Below, piece after piece: positions 29,720-42,523 of a DNA stretch of 64,000 bases. Positions within the stretch are counted from its first letter, which is position 1, and every line of letters starts with the position of its first letter. A program made the translations under genes and the position numbers. The stretch is taken from contig CAJIYH010000003.1 in assembly GCA_905181615.1 (NCBI GenBank), forward strand, positions 1 to 64,000, given 5' to 3'. Source of the stretch: an uncultured Flavobacteriaceae bacterium. GTDB lineage: Bacteria; Bacteroidota; Bacteroidia; Flavobacteriales; Flavobacteriaceae. The notes beneath the pieces are model-generated. The model saw only the letters and a list, made by a program, of their open reading frames with translations. It did not search any database and was not told the origin of the DNA.

Positions 29720-29722
29720 TTG

Positions 29723-30694
29723 ATGTTCCTGGACAAAATCCATGCCATATGGAATCCAGAATGCTACCATGGGTGGAATAAATCTAAAAAGTTTTTTGAA
29801 GGCTGGTATTATAAAATAATCAGTAAGGATCAAAAACATGCTTTAGCAATTATTCCAGGAATTGCAATGGATGAAACAGGAAAAAAACAGGCTTTTATCC
29901 AAGTATTAGATGGGAAAGAATTAAACGCTTCATATCACAAATTTGATGCTTCTGATTTTGTTGCAAGTTCTAAAAAGCATGACCTTCAAATTCAAGGAAA
30001 TCGTTTTACTTCAGACAGTATTGAGCTCGATTTGCCTGATTTAAAAGGCAAATTACACTTTACAAATAGAAAGCCGTGGTCAACTAGTTTTCTTTCTCCT
30101 GGTATTATGGGTCCTTTTTCTTTTGTCCCTTTCATGGAATGTTATCATGGGATTTTAAGTATGAATCACGGGATCGAAGGTTCGTTGATTCATAAAAAAA
30201 AAACACATTCTTTTGACGAAGGAAGAGGTTATATGGAAAAAGACTGGGGCCACTCCTTCCCAGAAGGATACATCTGGATGCAGAGCAACCATTTCAGTCA
30301 GCCTGGTGTTTCTGTCAAAGCTTCGATTGCCAAAATCCCTTGGTTAGGTTCTTCTTTTATTGGTCATATTGCCGGAGTTTTGGTTGCAGATTCATTAATT
30401 GAATTTACTACCTATAACGGAACTAAACTTAAGCATTGTTCTGTTTCAGAAGAGCAGGTTTGTCTTGAAATGGAAAACAAAAATTATAGGCTTTCGATAA
30501 TAGCTGAACGAAAAAAAGCGACTGCTTTGGCTGCACCAATTTCAGGTTTTATGGACGCTAGAATAGAAGAAAGTATGCATGCACAAATTCACGTGAAGTT
30601 GTTTGATAAAAAAAATAACTCAACTTTATTAGATGACGTTGGATTATCTGCAGGTCTTGAGGTTGCAGGAAACCACAACGTTTTATTAAAATAG
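29723..30694 (+). CDS. Tocopherol cyclase-like protein
   Basis: A 323-aa protein beginning MFLDKIHAIWNPECYHG (ATG 29723; a TTG one codon upstream abuts the previous stop). It has family-typical FFEGWYYKIISKDQKHALAIIPGI, PWSTSFLSPGIMGPFSFVPFMECYHGIL and YMEKDWGHSFPEGYIWMQSNHF. The plant/cyanobacterial family cyclises tocopherol precursors. Heterotrophic Bacteroidetes members occur without a tocopherol pathway, so another prenyl-lipid or carotenoid-like substrate, or none, is possible. The fold call is strong; the reaction is uncertain. Confidence 0.82.
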   Translation: MFLDKIHAIWNPECYHGWNKSKKFFEGWYYKIISKDQKHALAIIPGIAMDETGKKQAFIQVLDGKELNASYHKFDASDFVASSKKHDLQIQGNRFTSDSIELDLPDLKGKLHFTNRKPWSTSFLSPGIMGPFSFVPFMECYHGILSMNHGIEGSLIHKKKTHSFDEGRGYMEKDWGHSFPEGYIWMQSNHFSQPGVSVKASIAKIPWLGSSFIGHIAGVLVADSLIEFTTYNGTKLKHCSVSEEQVCLEMENKNYRLSIIAERKKATALAAPISGFMDARIEESMHAQIHVKLFDKKNNSTLLDDVGLSAGLEVAGNHNVLLK

Positions 30695-30981: not shown

Positions 30982-31614
30982 ATGATTGATAAATTAAAAA
31001 GCAATTATGGTGCTTTGTTTGAACCTGCTTTAATTTCAGAAATTGAATTCGCAGGGCAGTTAAAAAAAGTAGAATCCGGAACTCAGCTCATGCATATAGG
31101 GCAATACATTAAAAGCATGCCCCTTGTGCTTTCGGGGATCCTAAAAATCATGAGAGAAGACCAAGAAGGTGATTCCCTTTTGCTTTATTATTTAGAGCAA
31201 GGAGAAACTTGCGCAATGACCCTAAGTTGCTGCCTAGGAAGCCAGAAAAGTGAAATTATTGCTGTTACTGAATCCGATACCGAGCTCATCATGATTCCAA
31301 TAGAAAAAATGGAGACCTGGACTGCTCAATATAAGAGTTGGAGGGATTTTGTTTTTAACAGCTACAATCATAGAATTAAAGATTTGTTAGAAACGGTAGA
31401 CAGTATTGCTTTTCTAAAAATGGACGAACGTCTTATAAAATATTTAGAAGAAAAATCTAGAATATCGGATGATGGGATAATTCATAAAACGCATCAGGAA
31501 ATAGCCCACGAACTTCATACTTCTCGGGTTGTGATTTCAAGACTCTTAAAAACATTAGAACGAAAAGGAAAGGTTACAATAGAAAGAAACCGTGTTAAAC
31601 TGCTGAAAATTTAG
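30982..31614 (+). CDS. Crp/Fnr-family transcriptional regulator
   Basis: A 210-aa protein. An N-terminal cyclic-nucleotide-binding-like beta barrel (LMHIGQYIKSMPLVLSGILK) is followed by GETCAMTLSCCLGSQKSE, a long dimerisation helix and a C-terminal winged helix (THQEIAHELHTSRVVISRLLK). The ATG at 30982 is preferred to an upstream TTG. The Cys-rich CAMTLSCC segment could sense sulfur or redox species, which is inference. It is followed by the SulP and persulfide dioxygenase genes, both preceded by GTAAC-N4-GTTAC palindromes, its likely target. Confidence 0.9.
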   Translation: MIDKLKSNYGALFEPALISEIEFAGQLKKVESGTQLMHIGQYIKSMPLVLSGILKIMREDQEGDSLLLYYLEQGETCAMTLSCCLGSQKSEIIAVTESDTELIMIPIEKMETWTAQYKSWRDFVFNSYNHRIKDLLETVDSIAFLKMDERLIKYLEEKSRISDDGIIHKTHQEIAHELHTSRVVISRLLKTLERKGKVTIERNRVKLLKI

Positions 31615-31616
31615 GC

Positions 31617-31636
31617 TTGGTAACTTGTGTTACCAA
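31617..31636. promoter_or_regulatory. Perfect palindrome upstream of sulP, probable Crp/Fnr operator
   Basis: TTGGTAAC-TTGT-GTTACCAA has 8-bp perfect arms and a 4-bp spacer, a Crp-like geometry. Its centre is 30.5 bases upstream of the first base of a TACTTTTG box at 31657. It starts just after the Crp gene stop. The core GTAAC-N4-GTTAC recurs at 33399-33412 before the next gene. Confidence 0.7.
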
Positions 31637-31656
31637 ATCAATCCCACAAGATAATG

Positions 31657-31664
31657 TACTTTTG
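31657..31664 (+). promoter_or_regulatory. TAnnTTTG-type -7 promoter box for sulP
   Basis: TACTTTTG fits the Bacteroidetes sigma -7 consensus TAnnTTTG. No clear -33 TTG is seen at the expected distance; the palindrome lies near that position, consistent with an activated promoter. Confidence 0.5.
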
Positions 31665-31679
31665 TAAAAAAATATAACC

Positions 31680-33431
31680 TTGAAACGTCTTTTCCCAATC
31701 CTTGACTGGCTTCCAGACTACAAGAAAAGTATGCTTTGGAGTGATGCTGTTTCTGGTATTACGGCTGGAATACTTGCTATTGCGCAAGGAATGGCCTATG
31801 CCATGATTGCAGGCTTACCGCCTGTGCTTGGTCTCTACGCCGCATTGACTCCTCAAATCATATATGTATTGATGGGTACTTCTAGACAGCTTTCTATTGG
31901 TCCCGTAGCAATGGACTCTTTGATTGTTGCTGCTGGAATTGGAACCCTGCATATTGTTGGGGTTGATCAATATATTGCTGCAGCCGTATTTTTAGCCCTT
32001 TTTGTAGGGGTTATTCAAGTTCTTTTAGGAACCCTAAAGCTTGGGTTTTTGGTTAATTTCTTATCAAAACCAGTTCTCAACGGCTTTACATCAGCTGCAG
32101 CCATAATAATTGGATTTAGTCAATTGAAACATTTGTTTCGGATAGATATGATGCAAACCAACAAAATACACATCTTACTCCAAGAAGTCGTTTCAAATAT
32201 TTCCGAAACTCATTTTCTGAGTTTTGGACTTGGGGTTTTTGGAATTATTTTAATTAAGGTTTTTCAAAAAATTAATAAAAAAATTCCTGCTATCTTAATC
32301 ATTGTAAGTTTAGGAACCTTAGTCTTATACTTAACCCAATGGCATCTAATTGGAATTAAAATTGTAGGAGACATTCCAAATGGCCTTCCTGAATTTGGTG
32401 TTCCAAGTTTTGATAAAAATCAGCTTTTAGATCTCCTACCGGTTGCAATTACACTTGCTGTTGTAGGATTTACTGAAGCAATATCAATAGCCAAAGCGAT
32501 AGAAGAAAAACATACTGAATACGAGGTTGACCCTAACCAAGAGCTTATTGCGATAGGAAGTGGAAATATCATCGGATCTTTTGCGCAATCTTATCCTGCA
32601 ACAGCATCGTTTTCAAGGTCTGCGATTCAAGATCAAGGTGGTGCAAAATCTGGGATAGCTTCTTTATTTAGTGCAGGGCTTGTTTTGCTTACTTTACTTT
32701 TCCTAACTCCGCTCTTCTATTATTTGCCCATACCTATTTTAGCAGCCATAATCATGGTATCTATATTTGGTCTAATTGATTTTAAATACCCTATGAAACT
32801 TTGGAAAAAAAATAGAGATGAATCTCTTGCCTTTTTCATAACCTTCATTATTACAATGTCCGTTGGAATTCCTCAAGGAATACTTTTTGGAGTGCTTTTT
32901 TCACTTTTAACAATGATTTATAGAACCTCGAAACCACATATAGCAATTTTAGGTAAAGTTAAAAACACAGAATATTATAAAAACATTAGCCGCTTTGAAA
33001 AAGATGTTGTTATTGAAGAAAATATTTTGGTTTTTAGGTTTGATGCTCAGCTGTATTTTGGAAATCAAAATTTCTTTAAAAAAGAATTACTGAATCAAGT
33101 TGAACTAAAAGGAAATAAACTCGAACTCATAATAATCAATGCAGAAGCTATCAATTACATCGATTCTAGCGCGCTCACTATGCTTGAAAAACTATGTGTG
33201 GATATTAAAAATAGTGGTGTCAAAATTATGATTTCTGGTGCAATAGGACCAATTCGAGACATCATATTTAACCATAAATTAATTAAAATAATTGGGCCTG
33301 AAAATCTTGCTATAAAAACCTCTGAAGCTGTAAACCTCTATAATGACGGGGCATCTTCTTCTGATATTCAAAAGAAAATATCAAACCAAAACTTGACCGT
33401 AACAAATGTTACCAAAAGTGATCAAAAGTGA
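31680..33431 (+). CDS. SulP-family anion permease with STAS domain
   Basis: A 583-aa inner-membrane transporter. The SulP core has AIAQGMAYAMIAGLPPVLGLYAA near the N-terminus and about a dozen helices. A C-terminal STAS domain follows from about residue 440 (FRFDAQLYFGNQNFFK, YIDSSALTMLEKL). The start is TTG at 31680, giving the normal MKRLFPILDWLPDYKK opening; no nearby ATG fits. The substrate may be sulfate, another sulfur oxyanion or bicarbonate. Its position before a persulfide dioxygenase-rhodanese favours a sulfur anion, possibly export or import of sulfite/sulfate made by that enzyme (inference). Confidence 0.88.
   Translation: MKRLFPILDWLPDYKKSMLWSDAVSGITAGILAIAQGMAYAMIAGLPPVLGLYAALTPQIIYVLMGTSRQLSIGPVAMDSLIVAAGIGTLHIVGVDQYIAAAVFLALFVGVIQVLLGTLKLGFLVNFLSKPVLNGFTSAAAIIIGFSQLKHLFRIDMMQTNKIHILLQEVVSNISETHFLSFGLGVFGIILIKVFQKINKKIPAILIIVSLGTLVLYLTQWHLIGIKIVGDIPNGLPEFGVPSFDKNQLLDLLPVAITLAVVGFTEAISIAKAIEEKHTEYEVDPNQELIAIGSGNIIGSFAQSYPATASFSRSAIQDQGGAKSGIASLFSAGLVLLTLLFLTPLFYYLPIPILAAIIMVSIFGLIDFKYPMKLWKKNRDESLAFFITFIITMSVGIPQGILFGVLFSLLTMIYRTSKPHIAILGKVKNTEYYKNISRFEKDVVIEENILVFRFDAQLYFGNQNFFKKELLNQVELKGNKLELIIINAEAINYIDSSALTMLEKLCVDIKNSGVKIMISGAIGPIRDIIFNHKLIKIIGPENLAIKTSEAVNLYNDGASSSDIQKKISNQNLTVTNVTKSDQK
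33399..33412. promoter_or_regulatory. Second GTAAC-N4-GTTAC palindrome, inside the sulP 3' end
   Basis: GTAAC-AAAT-GTTAC lies inside the last codons of sulP, upstream of the persulfide dioxygenase gene. It is followed by two tandem copies of AAAAGTGATC (33414-33433) and by TAGTTTTG, a TAnnTTTG box at 33445-33452. The core matches the sulP-upstream palindrome in arms and spacing. Confidence 0.65.
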
Positions 33432-33485
33432 TCAAAATGAAACCTAGTTTTGTTGCCACAAAGAAAGTATACTAAAAAGACCTAA

Positions 33486-34892
33486 ATGAAAATTGAACAA
33501 ATTTATACCGGCTGTCTTGCGCAAGGCGCATATTATATAGAAAGTAAAGGAGAAGTTGCTATAATTGATCCACTTAGAGAAATAAATTCTTATCTAAAGA
33601 AGGCAAAACAAGATGATGCAAAAATTAAATATATTTTTGAAACTCATTTTCACGCTGATTTTGTTAGTGGTCACGTCACTTTATCTAAAAAAACTGATGC
33701 CCCTATTATTTATGGACCCACTGCAAAAACCGCTTTCGATTCCTTAATCGCTTACGACGGACAAAAATTTAAATTGGGTGATATTACCATAATTGCACTT
33801 CATACTCCCGGGCATACTCAAGAAAGCACTACCTACTTGCTTAAAGATAGTAATGGAAAAGACCACGCAATATTTAGTGGTGACACCTTGTTTTTAGGGG
33901 ATGTTGGGCGTCCCGATTTGGCTCAGAAAGCAGCAGATGTGACTCAAGATCAATTAGCCTCTATGCTTTTTAAAAGCTTACGCACCAAGATCATGCCATT
34001 AGCTGATGAAGTTATTGTTTATCCCGCACATGGAGCTGGCTCTGCTTGTGGTAAAAATTTAAGTAAAGAAACTATTGGAACTATTGGGGAGCAAAAAAGA
34101 ATAAACTATGCTCTTCGCGAGGACATGACCGAAGCCGAATTTATAAAAGAAGTAACCGATGGCTTGCTTCCACCCCCTCAATACTTCCCACTTAACGTTC
34201 AATTAAATAAAGAGGGTTACGAAGACTTTGATGACGTCCTTAAAAGAGGAGCGCAAGAGTTTGATGTTGAAGAATTCGAGCAGCAAGCTAAGCATTCAGA
34301 AGCTATTATATTAGATGTTCGTAACCAAACTAATTTTGCTATAGGTCATATTCCAGGGTCAATTTTCATTGGAATTGATGGTGGTTTTGCTCCTTGGGTT
34401 GGTGCATTAATTGGTGATATTAAGCAACCAATTTTGTTGGTAACGCCATCAGGAAGAGAACAGGAAACAATAACACGACTCTCCAGAGTTGGTTTTGATA
34501 ATACGGTTGGTATCCTTAAAGGCGGATTTGTGTCTTGGAAAGAGTCTGGAAAAGAAATTGATAACGTACATTCTATAAGTGCTAAAGAATTTAAAAATAA
34601 CCTAACCGATAGCTCTCCTGTCTTTGATGTAAGAAAACCTGGCGAATATAGTTCGGAACATATTCCGCATGCAAAAAACACTTCTTTAGATTTCATTAAT
34701 GAACATTTAAATGATTTCCCTGAAAATGGAAATTTTTATATTCATTGTGCAGGTGGATACAGAAGTATGATTGCTGCTTCAATATTAAAAAGAAGAGGAA
34801 TTCATAATCTAATCGACATAAAAGGTGGTTTTGGTGCCATAAAACAATCAGGGATTGTTATTTCTGATTATGTTTGCCCAAGCACTTTATAA
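33486..34892 (+). CDS. Persulfide dioxygenase-like MBL hydrolase fused to two rhodanese domains
   Basis: A 468-aa protein. An N-terminal metallo-beta-lactamase domain has THFHADFVSGH, HTPGHTQEST, SGDTLFLGDVGRPDL and YPAHGAGSACG, as in ETHE1/Blh-type persulfide dioxygenases. It is followed by two rhodanese domains. The first (ILDVRNQTNFAIGHIPG) has TPSGREQ in the active-site loop and lacks the cysteine. The second has HCAGGYRSM with catalytic Cys421. Such fusions oxidise glutathione- or low-molecular-weight persulfide to sulfite and transfer sulfur, detoxifying sulfide. Context with the Crp regulator and SulP supports a sulfide/persulfide response. Confidence 0.9.
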   Translation: MKIEQIYTGCLAQGAYYIESKGEVAIIDPLREINSYLKKAKQDDAKIKYIFETHFHADFVSGHVTLSKKTDAPIIYGPTAKTAFDSLIAYDGQKFKLGDITIIALHTPGHTQESTTYLLKDSNGKDHAIFSGDTLFLGDVGRPDLAQKAADVTQDQLASMLFKSLRTKIMPLADEVIVYPAHGAGSACGKNLSKETIGTIGEQKRINYALREDMTEAEFIKEVTDGLLPPPQYFPLNVQLNKEGYEDFDDVLKRGAQEFDVEEFEQQAKHSEAIILDVRNQTNFAIGHIPGSIFIGIDGGFAPWVGALIGDIKQPILLVTPSGREQETITRLSRVGFDNTVGILKGGFVSWKESGKEIDNVHSISAKEFKNNLTDSSPVFDVRKPGEYSSEHIPHAKNTSLDFINEHLNDFPENGNFYIHCAGGYRSMIAASILKRRGIHNLIDIKGGFGAIKQSGIVISDYVCPSTL

Positions 34893-35927: not shown

Positions 35928-36596
35928 TTATCCTTTTAGTCTTTGTATTAATGCTAGAGTATCTTTTACGTTATTAGTTAGTTCAGCATATGATTGATTT
36001 GCCAAAATATCTTTAGAAATTAATTGTGACCCCATACCTACACAGGTAACACCTGCATCGAACCAGCCTTTTAGATTTGCTTCATCTGTAGAAACTCCTC
36101 CTGTTGGCATTATAGAAGTCCATGGTTGCGGTCCTTTAATAGCTTTAACAAAGCCAGGTCCGTAGGTACTTCCAGGGAAAAGTTTCACAACTTCACATCC
36201 CATTTCCTCGGCAGTAGCAATTTCTGTTAATGATCCACACCCTGGTGACCAAAGTACTTTTCTGCGGTTACATACAATTGCAATGTCTTCCCTAAATACA
36301 GGAGTAACTATAAAGTTTGCTCCCGAAAGCATGTATTGAGATGCTGCTGCTGCATCGGTAATTGACCCTACTCCCATGATCATTCCAGGAAGTTCCGCAA
36401 TAGAATATTTTATTAATTGGTTGAATATTTCGAAAGCAAAATCACCTCGACTTGTAAACTCCATTAAGCGAGCTCCGCCATCGTAACAAGCTTTTAATAC
36501 TGATTTAGCTACGTTTATATCCTGATGGTAAAACAAAGGAACCATCCCTGATTCTTTCATTTGCTGTACTACTTCTAGTCTTGTATATTGTGCCAT
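35928..36596 (-). CDS. eda: KDPG/KHG aldolase
   Basis: A 222-aa class I aldolase with family regions MEFTSRGDFAFEIFNQL, VGSITDAAAASQYMLSGANFIVTPVF, the Schiff-base lysine context VKLFPGSTYGPGFVKAIKGP, and IMPTGGV. It splits 2-keto-3-deoxy-6-phosphogluconate into pyruvate and glyceraldehyde-3-phosphate, the last step of the alginate-monomer route. It is the terminal gene of the MFS-SDR-kdgK-eda unit and starts 9 bases after kdgK. Confidence 0.94.
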   Translation of the reverse strand: MAQYTRLEVVQQMKESGMVPLFYHQDINVAKSVLKACYDGGARLMEFTSRGDFAFEIFNQLIKYSIAELPGMIMGVGSITDAAAASQYMLSGANFIVTPVFREDIAIVCNRRKVLWSPGCGSLTEIATAEEMGCEVVKLFPGSTYGPGFVKAIKGPQPWTSIMPTGGVSTDEANLKGWFDAGVTCVGMGSQLISKDILANQSYAELTNNVKDTLALIQRLKG

Positions 36597-36605
36597 AGTA
36601 ATCTA

Positions 36606-37646
36606 TTATCGAGCAACACGCCCTGAAGCGTCTCCTCCCATTAGTTTTTCGATTTCTGGAATAGTAACTAAGTTTGCGTCCCCTTTAATGGTGTGTTTTA
36701 AACAGGATGCTGCTACTGCATAATCCAGTGCTTTTTGATCGTCTTCTGGATAATGAATTAACCCATAGATTAAAGCTCCCATAAAAGAATCTCCTCCTCC
36801 TACACGATCTACAATATGTGTTATTTGATATTGTGCGCTTTCGTACATCTTTTTGCCGTCGTATAAAACTCCTGCCCATGTATTGTGAGAAGCAGAAATT
36901 GAGCCTCGCAGCGTTGTAATTACTTTTGTAGCCCGCGGAAATTTTGCTTGCATTTGTTGACATACGGATAAGAAAGATTCTGCTTTTACATCTTTTCCTT
37001 GTGTTGTAATGTCTAAACCTTCTGGCTTAATACCAAAATGCATTTCTGCATCTTCCTCGTTTCCTAATATAATATCGCAGTACGAAGTTAATTCGGTCAT
37101 GATGCTTTCGCGATCCCCATCGTAATTCCACAACTTAGCTCGGTAATTTAGATCGGTAGAAATAGTAATTCCCATGGAACTTGCAACTCGAACTGCTTCT
37201 AGACATGCGTCTGCTGCACTCTGAGAAATTGCCGGAGTTATTCCAGTCCAATGAAACCATTGTGCATCTTTAAAAACCTCGCTCCAATCGACCATTCCCG
37301 GTTCTATTTCTGACATTGCTGAATGTGCACGGTCATAAACTACTTTACTCCCTCGGCTTACAGCTCCCGTTTCTAAAAAATAGATGCCCAATCGATCTCC
37401 GCCTTCTACAATGTGTTTTGTACCAACATTGCGTTTTCTCATTTCCATGAGTGCACATTGACCAATATCGGTTTTTGGCAAACGGGTAATAAATTCTACT
37501 GGTACGTTATAATTAGCTAGTGAAACTGCTACATTAGATTCTCCTCCTCCGTAAACTACGTCAAAGCTATTGGCTTGTGAGAAGCGTAAAAAATTCTGAG
37601 GGGCTAATCGCAACATGATTTCCCCAAAAGTGACCACTTTTTTCAT
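36606..37646 (-). CDS. kdgK: 2-keto-3-deoxygluconate kinase
   Basis: A 346-aa PfkB-family kinase with GGGESNVAVSLANY near residues 33-46 and the C-terminal VDRVGGGDSFMGALIYG motif containing the catalytic Asp. It phosphorylates 2-keto-3-deoxygluconate, made by the upstream SDR, to KDPG for Eda. The PfkB fold is certain; the KDG substrate is inferred from the alginate operon. The frame and length are normal. Confidence 0.93.
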   Translation of the reverse strand: MKKVVTFGEIMLRLAPQNFLRFSQANSFDVVYGGGESNVAVSLANYNVPVEFITRLPKTDIGQCALMEMRKRNVGTKHIVEGGDRLGIYFLETGAVSRGSKVVYDRAHSAMSEIEPGMVDWSEVFKDAQWFHWTGITPAISQSAADACLEAVRVASSMGITISTDLNYRAKLWNYDGDRESIMTELTSYCDIILGNEEDAEMHFGIKPEGLDITTQGKDVKAESFLSVCQQMQAKFPRATKVITTLRGSISASHNTWAGVLYDGKKMYESAQYQITHIVDRVGGGDSFMGALIYGLIHYPEDDQKALDYAVAASCLKHTIKGDANLVTIPEIEKLMGGDASGRVAR

Positions 37647-37673
37647 TATTTAAATAAGATGTTTGATTTTTTA

Positions 37674-38438
37674 TTAAATACCTAATGCTTGCCCTCCACC
37701 AATCTGAATGGTTTCTGCGGTAATAAATGCAGCATCATTACCTGCTAAAAAGGATACAACTGAAGCAACCTCTTCTGGCTGTCCAAGTCTTCCTAACATG
37801 ATGTTGTTCTTCCACGAAGCAAAGACCTCTGGTTTAGTAGATTTAATTTGAGCATGGAAAGGAGTGTCAATGGTTCCCGGAGAAACTGCATTTACACGGA
37901 TTCCATATTCTGCTAAATCTTTTGCTAATGCTCGTGTTATTGCATGTACTCCTGCTTTAGATGTTCCGTAGATTCCAGCTCCTGGTCCACCTGCATTCCA
38001 TCCTGCGTTAGATGTATAATTAATAATAGAAGCATAATCACTTTTCTTTAAGAATGGTATTGCCGCTCTGGAACAAAAGAATGTAGAATCTAGATTTAAT
38101 GCCATTACAAATCTGTAAAAATCAGTGGTCATTTCTTCAAAACGAGATCTTCCACCTAATCCTCCAGCATTATTGACTAATACATCGATTTTACCGTATT
38201 TTTCTCCAATCTTTTGGATGTTTGCGGTTACTTGTTCTTCATTAGTAACATCAAAACCATAGTATTCGGATGTAATTCCTGCTGCTGCAAGTTCTTTAAC
38301 TCTTTCAGCTCCAGCATCATCTTCGATTCCATTTAAAATGACCGTATATCCGTCTTTACCTAATCGTTTTGCTACTTCAAAACCAATTCCACCAGTGGCT
38401 CCAGTAATTATAGCTATTTTTCCTTTTGAATTACTCAT
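37674..38438 (-). CDS. SDR-family DEH/uronate reductase
   Basis: A 254-aa classical short-chain dehydrogenase: ITGATGGIGFEVAKRLG at residues 10-26, LVNNAGGLGG, the YGTSKAG catalytic Tyr/Lys box and VNAVSPGTIDTPFH. In flavobacterial alginate operons this gene reduces 4-deoxy-L-erythro-5-hexoseulose uronate (DEH), the spontaneous or KdgF-derived form of the unsaturated monomer, to 2-keto-3-deoxygluconate. Sequence alone gives only the SDR family; the substrate follows from kdgK, eda and the lyases nearby. It lies 27 bases before kdgK. Confidence 0.9.
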   Translation of the reverse strand: MSNSKGKIAIITGATGGIGFEVAKRLGKDGYTVILNGIEDDAGAERVKELAAAGITSEYYGFDVTNEEQVTANIQKIGEKYGKIDVLVNNAGGLGGRSRFEEMTTDFYRFVMALNLDSTFFCSRAAIPFLKKSDYASIINYTSNAGWNAGGPGAGIYGTSKAGVHAITRALAKDLAEYGIRVNAVSPGTIDTPFHAQIKSTKPEVFASWKNNIMLGRLGQPEEVASVVSFLAGNDAAFITAETIQIGGGQALGI

Positions 38439-38475
38439 CTTTTATATTTAATCTTTATAGGTTAGTTTATATATT

Positions 38476-39768
38476 TTATTTTTTTGCTTTTAGAGGCTCT
38501 ATTTTTGGGCATAGTCCCCAGATGCTTAATAAAGCAATGATTGAAAATGCTGCTCCTATAACAAAGACAGGATAATAATTACCTCCAGTAGTTAACCAAG
38601 GAACAAGTGCAGTTAATCCTACCGCTCCTAATTTTGCAGCCATTCCTGAGAAACCAGATAAAGTGCCCACTGTTTTTTTACCAAATAAATCACTAGGTAA
38701 CGTTTGTACACTTCCAATAGCTGTTTGAAAACCAAACAGAATTACTCCCATAATAAGCACTGCATTCACAGGAGCTCCAGGATTTGACATTGCTAATAAT
38801 GCGGGTAACATGATTAGACATCCTAGAGTAATGACTAGTTTACGTGTTTTGTCAACTGTCCATCCAGATTTAATTCTATTTTGAGCTAAAAGTCCTCCAA
38901 ACCATGCTCCTAACATTGCACCGACATAAGGAACCCAGCCATAAAGACCTATACCTTTAACATCCATACCATACACTTCGTTTAAGTAAATAGGGATCCA
39001 TACTACAAACAACCACCAAATTGGATCTATAACAGCTGAGGCTATAATTACACCCCAACTTTCTTTATGCTTTAATAATTGTTTTGTTGTTGGATTGTAT
39101 TCTTCATCTGACACATGTTCCTCTGTAACTTTTTGACCGCTTAAAATGTATTGTCGTTCTTCTTCTGTTAACCAAGGGTGTGATTTAGGTGGTGCTTTTA
39201 CAATTAGCATCCAAGGGAGTAACCATAAAACCCCAATTAATCCCACAATGACAAATATCATTTGCCAACTGAAATGAATTGTAAGGTAGGCTATTAAAGG
39301 AATAGAAATAATCCCTCCGAATGCTGCGCCAGAATTAAATATTCCTTGAGCCAAAGCTCTTTGTCTGGCTGGAAACCATTCTGCATTTGCTTTAGCTGCA
39401 CCTGGCCAATTACCTGCTTCTGCAACCCCTAAAAGAGAGCGAAAAATTCCAAAGCTCAATACACCTCGAGCTAGTGCATGTAATGCAGTAGCGATGGACC
39501 AAAACCCAATGGATAAAGCAAACCCCAAACGGGTTCCGATCCAGTCGAAAATTTTTCCAAATATAAGTTGACCAAAGGCATAGGAAAATATGAAAATAGT
39601 AGAAATCCAACCAAAAATTTCTTTTCGTTGATCATTTGTCTTGTCGGGATAGAGTTCTTGTGCAATGTCTGGCCAAAGAACACCTAATGACTGCCTGTCT
39701 ATATAGTTTATAACTGTCGCTAATGCAATCAAGCCAATAACCCACCATCTCAATCCGTTAATTTTCAT
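38476..39768 (-). CDS. MFS transporter, hexuronate (ExuT-like) family
   Basis: A 430-aa, 12-helix major facilitator of the anion:cation symporter type. It opens LRWWVIGLIALATVINYIDRQSLGVLWP, as in hexuronate/glucarate transporters. The A-like motif region and the central loop (KAPPKSHPWLTEEERQYIL) are also typical. It probably imports the unsaturated uronate monomer or DEH from the periplasm. It heads the SDR-kdgK-eda unit and is preceded by the hairpin leader at 39821-39854. Substrate inferred from context. Confidence 0.9.
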   Translation of the reverse strand: MKINGLRWWVIGLIALATVINYIDRQSLGVLWPDIAQELYPDKTNDQRKEIFGWISTIFIFSYAFGQLIFGKIFDWIGTRLGFALSIGFWSIATALHALARGVLSFGIFRSLLGVAEAGNWPGAAKANAEWFPARQRALAQGIFNSGAAFGGIISIPLIAYLTIHFSWQMIFVIVGLIGVLWLLPWMLIVKAPPKSHPWLTEEERQYILSGQKVTEEHVSDEEYNPTTKQLLKHKESWGVIIASAVIDPIWWLFVVWIPIYLNEVYGMDVKGIGLYGWVPYVGAMLGAWFGGLLAQNRIKSGWTVDKTRKLVITLGCLIMLPALLAMSNPGAPVNAVLIMGVILFGFQTAIGSVQTLPSDLFGKKTVGTLSGFSGMAAKLGAVGLTALVPWLTTGGNYYPVFVIGAAFSIIALLSIWGLCPKIEPLKAKK

Positions 39769-39820
39769 ACATGTCTTTAGAATAAAGCTGTATAGATTTA
39801 AAATCTATATAACTTTGGTT

Positions 39821-39854
39821 CCCTCTTATTACTTCTATGGGTGGTACAACACCC
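39821..39854 (-). promoter_or_regulatory. Leader hairpin with TTGTAC loop upstream of the MFS operon
   Basis: On the minus strand, GGGTG-TTGTAC-CACCC (39839-39854) forms a hairpin, followed by ATAAGAGGGAA (39819-39829). The same hexaloop closed by G-C and the same 11-base ATAAGAGGGAA block occur together before the SusC operon (47219-47271). Role unknown: leader control or processing site. There is no good T-run on the minus strand, so it is not a plain terminator for the GntR gene. Confidence 0.5.
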
Positions 39855-39870
39855 GTACTGTTTTACTCTT

Positions 39871-40563
39871 TTACTTTATATTATAGCAATACTGATAAAG
39901 TGCCTTGAAGTGTTTTTTCATAGCATCTTTAGCTGCATCTGGATCATTATCTCGAATGGCATCAATAATGGCATTGTGTTCTTGAATTCCAATAAATGCA
40001 GTGTCTTTGTCACACACATGATGTTTTTCGAAATTATTGATAATTTCGGGTGTGATTTTAAGCATAAAAGTATTCAAGGTAGGATTTCCACTTGCGCGAG
40101 CTATAGCCAAATGGAAGAGTAAATCTTCTTGAACAGCATCTTCTCCAGCTTTAACTTTATCTGAATATGCTGTTAAAGCATTTTCCATACGAATCAAATC
40201 GTCGGTTGTTCTTCTAATTGCTGCTAATTTTACACCTTTAAGTTCTAAAAAAATTCTGGCTTCAACCAATTCTTTAAAAGAGGGTACTAGTAAACTCAAG
40301 ATATCGTCAATCATTCCGTTGAGAGCTGTAATGCCAATATCTGCAACGAACGTTCCACTTTGAGGAATAGACTTCACTAATCCATAATACTCTAGAGTTT
40401 GGAGTGCATCGCGAAGATTACCTCGAGACACATTGAATTTTTCGGATAACATACGTTCAGAGGGAAGCTTATCACCAGGTTCTAAGTTTTTAAAATTAAT
40501 TAAATCCTTTAGATCTGATATAATCTTTTTCTTTGTGCTCTGAATTTCTGTATCAACAATCAT
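39871..40563 (-). CDS. FadR-subfamily GntR transcriptional regulator
   Basis: A 230-aa protein. The N-terminal winged helix contains LEPGDKLPSERMLSEKFNVSRGNLRDALQTLEYYGLV. The C-terminal FCD-type helical ligand domain includes EARIFLELKGVKLAA and HLAIARASGNPTL. FadR-type regulators of uronate metabolism (ExuR/UxuR) bind TTGGTATACCAA-like palindromes. Similar TTGG-N4-CCAA sites precede the PL6 gene and the SusC operon here, making this the likely alginate-locus regulator, probably a repressor released by a uronate intermediate (inference). Confidence 0.92.
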   Translation of the reverse strand: MIVDTEIQSTKKKIISDLKDLINFKNLEPGDKLPSERMLSEKFNVSRGNLRDALQTLEYYGLVKSIPQSGTFVADIGITALNGMIDDILSLLVPSFKELVEARIFLELKGVKLAAIRRTTDDLIRMENALTAYSDKVKAGEDAVQEDLLFHLAIARASGNPTLNTFMLKITPEIINNFEKHHVCDKDTAFIGIQEHNAIIDAIRDNDPDAAKDAMKKHFKALYQYCYNIK

Positions 40564-40619
40564 ATTGACTCAATATTTAGACTTAGGTTATAAAATATAT
40601 TCAAAGTTAATCATTTAAT

Positions 40620-41573
40620 CTATTCATGAGAGACTGAAAGTTCATAGTACTTTACTCGAGCAAAAGACCCTTCATCTCTACTTTGAAAATAATTACCTGC
40701 TTTAAAATAATTCTCAAAAATTCCCCACTTTTGAATATGAACACTATCATAAATAATGGAATATAAGTCATTAAAAACAATTTCCATTGATCCATCAGCT
40801 ACAATAACTTCAAGAGTAAATTTTTCATTACCTACATCTACAGGAATGGTGTATCCTTCGTCATCTCCCCATGCACTTTCATGAAGTAATTCTTCATAGG
40901 TGGCATTTAGGTTTTTGACAATTTTTGTTTTGATTCGAACACGTCCATTATGCCAATAAATTTTTAGCATTGGGGGTGCATTATTATCATCCTCTCCGAT
41001 TAAATCTCGTTGCTCATTAGTTAACCTTCCATGAATTTGCATGATAATAACCCGGTGTGGTTTTCCATTTTCATCTAAAGATACTTCAGGAACCGAAAGT
41101 ACACCTCGCATCCTTCCTCCTTGAGAAAAAGTCCAGTTGGTATTATCACTTCCCGCAACCATTTGTTCGCGCAACTCCGTTCTTGAATAAGTAGAGTTGG
41201 CAGTAGTGTTTGCTGGGTAAGCATAAAAAACCAAAGAGCCGTCTATAGAATCGTTATAAAAAAACGGTTTTAGGGTTTCGTTATTAGCGTAATCTAATAT
41301 TTCGGGAGGTCGAACTGATGTTGGGTTTCCAATAGGAAGCGTTACTTTCCAGTTATTTAAATCAATATTAGGTAAAACTGTTGAAGTAGAACTGGTGCTT
41401 TCGGCTAACATTTCAGCCGAAGCACTGTTCTGACTATTTTCTAAATCTCTTTCAGCGATATATAGATCAAGTTCACTTAGACCATTATCCGTTTTTTTAC
41501 AGCCTGAATAGGCAAATAAAAAACTTAGGGATAACCAGAACAAAAAAATGTTATGCAGAGAATTTATCTTCAT
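40620..41573 (-). CDS. PL7-family alginate lyase lipoprotein
   Basis: A 317-aa lipoprotein (LFAYSGC, Cys about residue 25) with the PL7 jelly-roll motifs: SRTELREQ near residue 130, QIHG and YFKAGNYFQ near the C-terminus. These are the three conserved strands of the catalytic cleft. The QIH variant is usually linked to activity on guluronate-containing blocks, QVH to poly-mannuronate. Surface anchoring fits an initial endolytic cut of alginate next to SusC/D. It is the last gene of the SusC-SusD-PKD-PL7 unit, 14 bases after the PKD lipoprotein gene. Confidence 0.93.
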   Translation of the reverse strand: MKINSLHNIFLFWLSLSFLFAYSGCKKTDNGLSELDLYIAERDLENSQNSASAEMLAESTSSTSTVLPNIDLNNWKVTLPIGNPTSVRPPEILDYANNETLKPFFYNDSIDGSLVFYAYPANTTANSTYSRTELREQMVAGSDNTNWTFSQGGRMRGVLSVPEVSLDENGKPHRVIIMQIHGRLTNEQRDLIGEDDNNAPPMLKIYWHNGRVRIKTKIVKNLNATYEELLHESAWGDDEGYTIPVDVGNEKFTLEVIVADGSMEIVFNDLYSIIYDSVHIQKWGIFENYFKAGNYFQSRDEGSFARVKYYELSVSHE

Positions 41574-41587
41574 TTACTTATTTCAAA

Positions 41588-42523
41588 TTAATCTACTGGA
41601 TAAAGCTTAACGTTATCTATATAGGAATCAACAGATGTAATACCATACATCCAAATAGCTACTAATCCGCTTTCTGGTGCAGTAAAGGTTTGTTTTACAA
41701 GCGTAAAGTTTCCTTTTCCAAGAATAGCCGTACTTACAATCTGAGTTAATGGTGATGCTTGAGAACTAGCTAAAGCATCTGCACCATCGCTGAAATGTCC
41801 AGACAACATTTCAACAACTAGTCTGTCTCCAGTTGAATCAAGACCAGAACCACCTGTTTTAATTGCGTAACTAAACTCAATATAATATTCACGCCCTGGC
41901 GAAACTGTATGTGCTTGATATGCAAAACGAGTAGAACCGCTTAAGTTTGGTCCAGCAGAAGTTGAGCTAGTCCATTTAGCTCCGGGCGTTTTACTCCCGT
42001 TATCAGATCCATCATAGTTTAGGTTTTCGCCATCAGAACTTGAATTATATGGACTTGTAGTTCCTCCAGTAAACGTTGAAACTTTCCAGTTATCTTGACC
42101 ATTAGAAAAATCTCCATTAATTACATCGGGATTAATAGCAGGAGGAATTGGTGGCTCTACTATAACTAATTGAGCGGTATATGTATCGCTGACAAGAAGC
42201 TTATCTGTAGCCTCTAGAGAGACTGAATATGTTCCAACAGATGGGAATGAAAAAGTTGGCTCAACAGCAGTAGAAGATCCTCCTCCAGGAAAAGTCCAAA
42301 CATAATCTGTAGCACTTTTGGAAGTGTTAGAAAAATTGTATGTTAAAAAATCTTCTGTTCCTACAGCACTAAAACTTGCACTAGGCGGAGTAAGATCTGC
42401 TATAGAAGCTTCTTCCGGTAATTCTAATTTTTCGCAGGAAACAACTCCCAGCAAAAGAAAATTAACTAAAAGAACGAATGGTAGATTCATTCTCTTTAGT
42501 GTATTGTTATTAAATGTTTTCAT
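41588..42523 (-). CDS. PKD-domain surface lipoprotein of the alginate locus
   Basis: A 311-aa lipoprotein (LLLGVVSC) with a PKD domain of about 75 residues (PSASFSAVGTEDFLTYNFSN...VWTFPGGGSST...FPSVGTYSVSLEATD). A C-terminal beta-sandwich resembles a carbohydrate-binding module: VINGDFSNGQDNWKVSTF and LVAIWMYGITSVDSYIDNVKLYPVD. It probably acts as an extra surface glycan-binding protein beside SusD. No catalytic motif is seen. It sits between susD and the PL7 lyase. Confidence 0.83.
   Translation of the reverse strand: MKTFNNNTLKRMNLPFVLLVNFLLLGVVSCEKLELPEEASIADLTPPSASFSAVGTEDFLTYNFSNTSKSATDYVWTFPGGGSSTAVEPTFSFPSVGTYSVSLEATDKLLVSDTYTAQLVIVEPPIPPAINPDVINGDFSNGQDNWKVSTFTGGTTSPYNSSSDGENLNYDGSDNGSKTPGAKWTSSTSAGPNLSGSTRFAYQAHTVSPGREYYIEFSYAIKTGGSGLDSTGDRLVVEMLSGHFSDGADALASSQASPLTQIVSTAILGKGNFTLVKQTFTAPESGLVAIWMYGITSVDSYIDNVKLYPVD

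Follow-up and report, generated by a model that had tools for sequence, protein, structure and literature searches.

In S. aureus, the genes tauE, cstA, cstB, and sqr form the cst operon under one dedicated regulator, CstR (PMC5480029), a CsoR-family repressor that acts as a dithiol sensor. Sulfide-oxidation genes of other phyla are controlled by FisR and by SqrR/BigR (PMC9774590), which belong to the Fis/sigma-54 and ArsR families and which, as proteins and in their operators, are unrelated to the Crp protein described here. Closer in family is HcpR2, a Crp/Fnr-type nitrosative-stress regulator of hcp for which the consensus GTAACnnnnGTTAC was predicted in 2005 by Rodionov (PMC1274295). Flavobacteria and other Bacteroidota abound in places with a turnover of sulfide and organic sulfur. 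In the literature that we found, in which subscription journals are barely covered, neither a regulator of sulfide/persulfide oxidation genes in Bacteroidota nor a Crp/Fnr regulator for a sulfur module of this kind is described.

Here we analyze a 64,000-nucleotide stretch of DNA (the window) from an uncultured Flavobacteriaceae bacterium, in which a crp gene is followed by sulP and by a gene for a putative persulfide dioxygenase-rhodanese (Table 1). The first-pass annotation had reported two palindromes, a TAnnTTTG box after each, and an upstream crp gene with a CAMTLSCC segment, all of which are correct in their letters and coordinates. Its interpretation as a whole is partly supported: the regulatory reading of the palindromes is strongly supported by comparison of related genomes, and the proposed mode of sensing fares less well. 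What emerges appears to be a Crp/Fnr switch, uncharacterized so far, that is present in many marine Flavobacteria.

Table 1 Genes and predicted regulatory elements of the window locus
Feature	Positions	Strand	Basis
crp, 210-aa Crp/Fnr-family regulator	30982-31614	+	Pfam cNMP_binding and HTH_Crp_2
Site 1, TTGGTAAC-TTGT-GTTACCAA, predicted sulP operator	31617-31636	+	Conserved in sister genomes
Predicted sulP -7 box, TACTTTTG	31657-31664	+	Box position from PMC6847099
sulP, SulP/SLC26-family anion transporter with STAS domain	31680-33431	+	Domain and sequence matches
Site 2, GTAAC-AAAT-GTTAC, predicted persulfide dioxygenase operator	33399-33412	+	Kept in G010, G002, and G004
10-bp tandem duplication, AAAAGTGATC x2	33414-33433	+	Alignment; sister genomes lack the duplication
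Predicted dioxygenase -7 box, TAGTTTTG	33445-33452	+	TAnnTTTG match
Persulfide dioxygenase-rhodanese gene, metallo-beta-lactamase domain and two rhodanese domains	33486-34892	+	Pfam

The crp-sulP-dioxygenase locus

The Crp protein contains a cNMP_binding domain (PF00027) followed by a Crp-type helix-turn-helix (PF13545), both above the Pfam cut-off, and its recognition helix reads TSRVVISR. AlphaFold2 models it with an ordinary CRP fold in which the cysteine loop is of low confidence (below 50 at residues 81-83), so that the model gives no guidance on how the protein senses its signal. Among the nearest solved relatives is NtcA, the global nitrogen regulator of cyanobacteria, whose helix TRVTVTR resembles SRVVISR and whose consensus, GTA-N8-TAC, contains the Crp site. 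The sequence similarity to NtcA is distant, however, and NtcA differs in its nitrogen regulon and in its effector, 2-oxoglutarate.

The downstream gene encodes a metallo-beta-lactamase domain (PF00753) fused to two rhodanese stretches (PF00581), the architecture that defines the CstB/PRF type. Its nearest solved sequences are 3tp9 and 3r2u, the latter a 466-aa metallo-beta-lactamase protein of the same domain type, and we assign the product to the persulfide dioxygenase-rhodaneses of the CstB/PRF type, with the activity predicted. For SulP, the nearest solved sequence is Arabidopsis SULTR4;1 (E 3e-106), a plant organelle protein, whereas the cargo and direction of the bacterial SulP are predictions. 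The module shares with the cst operon a TauE-type exporter, a persulfide dioxygenase-sulfurtransferase, a rhodanese-type sulfurtransferase, and a sulfide-quinone reductase. It differs in that SulP can replace TauE and in its regulator, which belongs to the Crp/Fnr family and has its predicted site where an activator would bind.

A tocopherol-cyclase-like protein (PF14249), here in a Bacteroidota genome, is encoded at 29720-30694 and is kept with its upstream neighbors in sister genomes. The minus-strand genes at 35928-42523 (aldolase-like, kinase-like, dehydrogenase, MFS transporter, GntR-type regulator, and lyase-like) look like an alginate utilization locus. An enoyl-CoA-hydratase-like gene that in sister genomes (L046, L049) separates the dioxygenase gene from the next gene is missing from the window.

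Placement of the predicted operators and promoter geometry

Orthologous crp loci from 60 relatives were compared together with 80 loci from named genomes, and 121 loci were scored. When up to one mismatch is allowed, GTAAC-N4-GTTAC immediately follows crp in 82 of the 121, against 0.74 expected from dinucleotide shuffles, and the exact palindrome in 75 (expected 0.04); the other 39 loci have no palindrome right after crp, and because the loci and genomes are related, these counts are not independent. Conservation in orthologous clusters, the check that the first-pass annotation had proposed, is thus borne out. The long palindrome at site 1 is present as described, but its outer TTG/CAA falls outside the family consensus, which the site logo gives as T-GTAAC-N4-GTTAC.

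The significance of the palindrome is in its placement rather than in the core itself. Exact copies of the core number 6 in the 2.19-Mb genome to which the window belongs, against 10 for the reversed control, and the core alone was rejected as evidence. Site 1 (core 31620-31633) begins 3-6 bp past the crp stop codon, and inverted repeats can end transcripts, but to take this palindrome for a terminator, or for a repeat that arose by chance, is hardly tenable: the core is A+T-rich, has no T run behind it, and is unenriched by itself, and sites of the same form also precede genes far from crp and keep an exact spacing to a promoter box.

The classic position of a class II activator is -41.5. The palindrome centre lies exactly 29.5 bp upstream of the TAnnTTTG box in 107 of 115 site-box pairs and, because this box begins at -12 in Flavobacterium johnsoniae (PMC6847099), the operator is centred at -41.5. 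Such an operator near -41.5, at a fixed spacing, characterizes a class II Crp-dependent promoter; site 2 of the window, at -51.5, is the exception. No -33 element is visible between site and box in the site logo, as would be expected if an activator takes over its role.

The same geometry bears on whether the protein might act as a repressor. Because the known persulfide regulators CstR, SqrR, and BigR are all repressors (PMC9774590), one could imagine Crp blocking the promoter from -41.5 until persulfide releases it. We consider this improbable: a repressor would tolerate many positions, whereas class II activation requires just such a rigid spacing as the 29.5 bp seen here, and the lack of a -33 element in the logo argues in the same direction. 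That the neighboring Crp protein binds the two palindromes and activates both genes, as the first-pass annotation had it, is very probable, given the -41.5 position, the co-occurrence of regulator and site, and the sites elsewhere in the genome; it is in this sense that we infer DNA binding itself and activation rather than repression.

Both sites of the window depart from the common spacing. At site 1, the centre lies 30.5 bp from the -7 box (about -42.5), with a predicted sulP transcription start at ~31669. Site 2 lies within the sulP 3' end, 33 bp before the gene end, and its centre is 39.5 bp from the -7 box, with the dioxygenase-gene start predicted at ~33457. In the alignment, G010, G002, and G004 have the site before the dioxygenase gene in the same place at 29.5 bp, and it is the perfect 10-bp tandem duplication that puts the window's box one helical turn further away. 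The dioxygenase promoter of the window could be weak, or the gene could be read through from sulP, as would be the case in one sister clade that lacks the second site.

Regulator-site pairing and content of the predicted regulon

Regulator and site occur together. The 28 genomes with a close crp orthologue contain 42 matches to the composite pattern GTAACN4GTTAC-N22/23-TAnnTTTG and none to its reversed control; among 22 genomes without such an orthologue, 1 has the pattern (Fisher p 2e-8). When 296 genomes of the phylum are taken together, the pattern is present in 21 of the 29 that have a strong orthologue, compared with 9 of the 267 others (p 6e-19, a value that ignores relatedness and uses a strong-orthologue cut of E 1e-75 set after the table was seen). 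In the genome of the window itself, the search recovered only a single Crp of this family, and a pattern search placed three of the six exact palindromes in promoter position, preceding sulP, the dioxygenase gene, and yeeE. In the third of these (G000:C2:454124, locus L244), 22 bp separate the palindrome from a TAATTTCG box, behind which comes a YeeE/YedE-type gene pair. The remaining three have no box, and at least two (L246, L249) are inside long coding frames. A duplicated site in G005 (L117, L118), which is located in repeated DNA without a sulfur gene, was set aside.

The DNA motif itself is not new, being known from HcpR2 (PMC1274295). Since the published consensus, GTAACnnnnGTTAC, is identical and both proteins belong to the Crp/Fnr family, the window regulator might be of the HcpR2 type and answer to nitric oxide. 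In G286 and G294 (L217, L218, L257, L258), composite sites do stand ahead of hcp or of a small DUF2492 gene. However, hcp (Prismane) is absent from 22 of the 22 Crp-bearing genomes checked, with positive controls detected, and both hcp genomes lack a match to the window Crp family at E 1e-5. HcpR2 also has proline at CRP position 181, where the window Crp family has valine (SRVVISR). The R180-V181 pair of the Crp helix, with Arg180 kept and Glu181 lost, agrees with the published recognition code for a TGTAAC half-site, which lacks the G that E181 reads. An HcpR2-type nitrosative-stress regulator is therefore very unlikely, and we rejected membership on the absence of hcp and on residue 181. 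In G286 and G294, another regulator probably acts through this operator at the same spacing; the motif alone does not name its regulator, and one Crp/Fnr DNA motif would serve in sulfur control as well as in the response to nitrosative stress.

At 129 distinct composite sites, the first downstream gene, assigned with Pfam, is most often TauE/SafE (34), rhodanese (27), metallo-beta-lactamase dioxygenase (20), and SulP (16). Rarer are outer-membrane efflux (11), DUF983 (8), fatty-acid-hydroxylase-like (5), Crp itself (4), cytochrome bd (2), and YeeE sulfur transport (2), with single thioredoxin, DsbD, and DsrE genes; a cytochrome c is also among the regulon genes. The crp neighborhoods likewise hold SulP or TauE, the dioxygenase-rhodanese, the YeeE pair, rhodanese, and thioredoxin, and sequence inspection adds a flavoprotein resembling sulfide-quinone reductase. 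By its predicted content the regulon is one of sulfide/persulfide oxidation and export, the kind of regulon that marks a persulfide-responsive regulator. The "sulfur module" of the first-pass annotation holds in that its targets are sulfur genes, but its restriction to sulP and the dioxygenase gene was too narrow, the regulon being wider. No clear connection with sulfur is apparent for the TolC-type efflux, DUF983, and sterol-desaturase-like genes. TolC/HlyD/RND efflux operons with a composite site occur in several genera (L126, L127, L129, L130). In Maribacter-type genomes, a composite site accompanies a DUF983 gene that immediately precedes crp (L161, L163, L168, L170, L184), an arrangement that suggests a shared operon and hence autoregulation of crp.

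The exporter position offers a view of SulP, whose substrate is uncertain. Among the 121 loci, SulP lies directly before the dioxygenase in 33 and TauE in 49, and both are found on the dioxygenase strand in 3, where ~18 would be expected under independence. We read this near mutual exclusion as one exporter replacing another. SulP thus occupies the slot held in relatives by the putative sulfite exporter TauE, in agreement with the earlier proposal that it handles sulfite or sulfate; the replacement suggests that its cargo is one of these anions and, by analogy with TauE, that the direction is outward, and we infer both substrate and direction on this footing. Co-regulation and mutual replacement likewise predict functions for TauE and the YeeE pairs.

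The presence of cytochrome bd, cytochrome c, and TolC-type efflux genes in the regulon raises the question of what the protein responds to. It is quite possible, if short of probable, that Crp controls sulfur genes but senses something else (redox state, oxygen, a ligand such as a metal or haem, or a small molecule in its cNMP-like pocket), with sulfur detoxification as one output of a respiratory switch. Against a respiratory switch, the commonest targets are sulfur genes, and nitrogen-oxide or fermentation genes do not recur in the Crp-bearing genomes. Cytochrome bd also fits sulfide stress, as bd oxidases resist sulfide.

Our preferred reading, which is likely on the sequence comparisons, is that Crp activates sulP, the dioxygenase-rhodanese gene, and the yeeE pair from class II promoters when reactive sulfur rises and that SulP exports sulfite or sulfate. 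As a dimeric transcription activator, the protein would bind (T)GTAAC-N4-GTTAC and, at about -41.5, contact RNA polymerase at the TAnnTTTG promoters of Bacteroidota in place of a -33 element. A rise in sulfide-derived reactive sulfur, the presumed signal, would lead it to turn on sulP and the persulfide dioxygenase-rhodanese gene, together with the yeeE/yedE-type sulfur transporter pair elsewhere in the genome. Persulfide would then be oxidized to sulfite by the dioxygenase-rhodanese, and sulfite or sulfate would leave the cell through SulP or, in most relatives, through TauE. In this scheme, the comparisons support the predicted operator and the geometry of its promoters, the pairing of regulator with site, and the set of genes; they yield a candidate regulator, an exact predicted operator with its promoter geometry, and a list of genes for use in cultured species.

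Cysteine residues and candidate effectors

The first-pass annotation had proposed that the regulator senses persulfide or redox state through the cysteines of its CAMTLSCC segment. Cys77, Cys83, and Cys84 are the only cysteines in the whole 210-aa protein, and Cys77 is invariant among orthologues. In ten orthologues, however, Trp-Glu or Ala-Asp stands in place of Cys83 and Cys84; the site, its spacing, and its targets are retained with these proteins, and Cys77 is their sole cysteine. A disulfide or polysulfide bridge between Cys77 and Cys83/84 was therefore rejected as a general mechanism, since a two-thiol bridge within one chain cannot be general where the chain has one thiol. Cys77 also occurs in paralogues of ~34-36% identity that lie beside unrelated genes. 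The case for cysteine sensing as first proposed is accordingly weak, and the dispensability of Cys83/84 and the sharing of Cys77 with non-sulfur paralogues are both points in favor of a signal other than reactive sulfur.

Cys77 may act by itself as the sensing thiol, or sensing may be of a different nature. A more specific version, in which persulfidation of Cys77, in the region where cAMP is bound in CRP, mimics a ligand and triggers a class II sulfur regulon in Flavobacteria and beyond, seems unlikely. Two familiar types of sensor were also considered. The protein does not fit an FNR-type Fe-S oxygen sensor, as the N-terminal 4Fe-4S cysteine cluster is absent. cAMP is disfavored by the Leu-Leu at the positions of CRP Thr127/Ser128, a substitution that speaks against cAMP but not against a different ligand.

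Two of the Cys77 paralogues adjoin palindromes of their own, GTGAC-N4-GTCAC. In these loci (L133, L134), a paralogous Crp with the segment ETCFMS is flanked by the palindrome and has unrelated neighbors, which suggests a sister regulon whose half-site is changed by one base.
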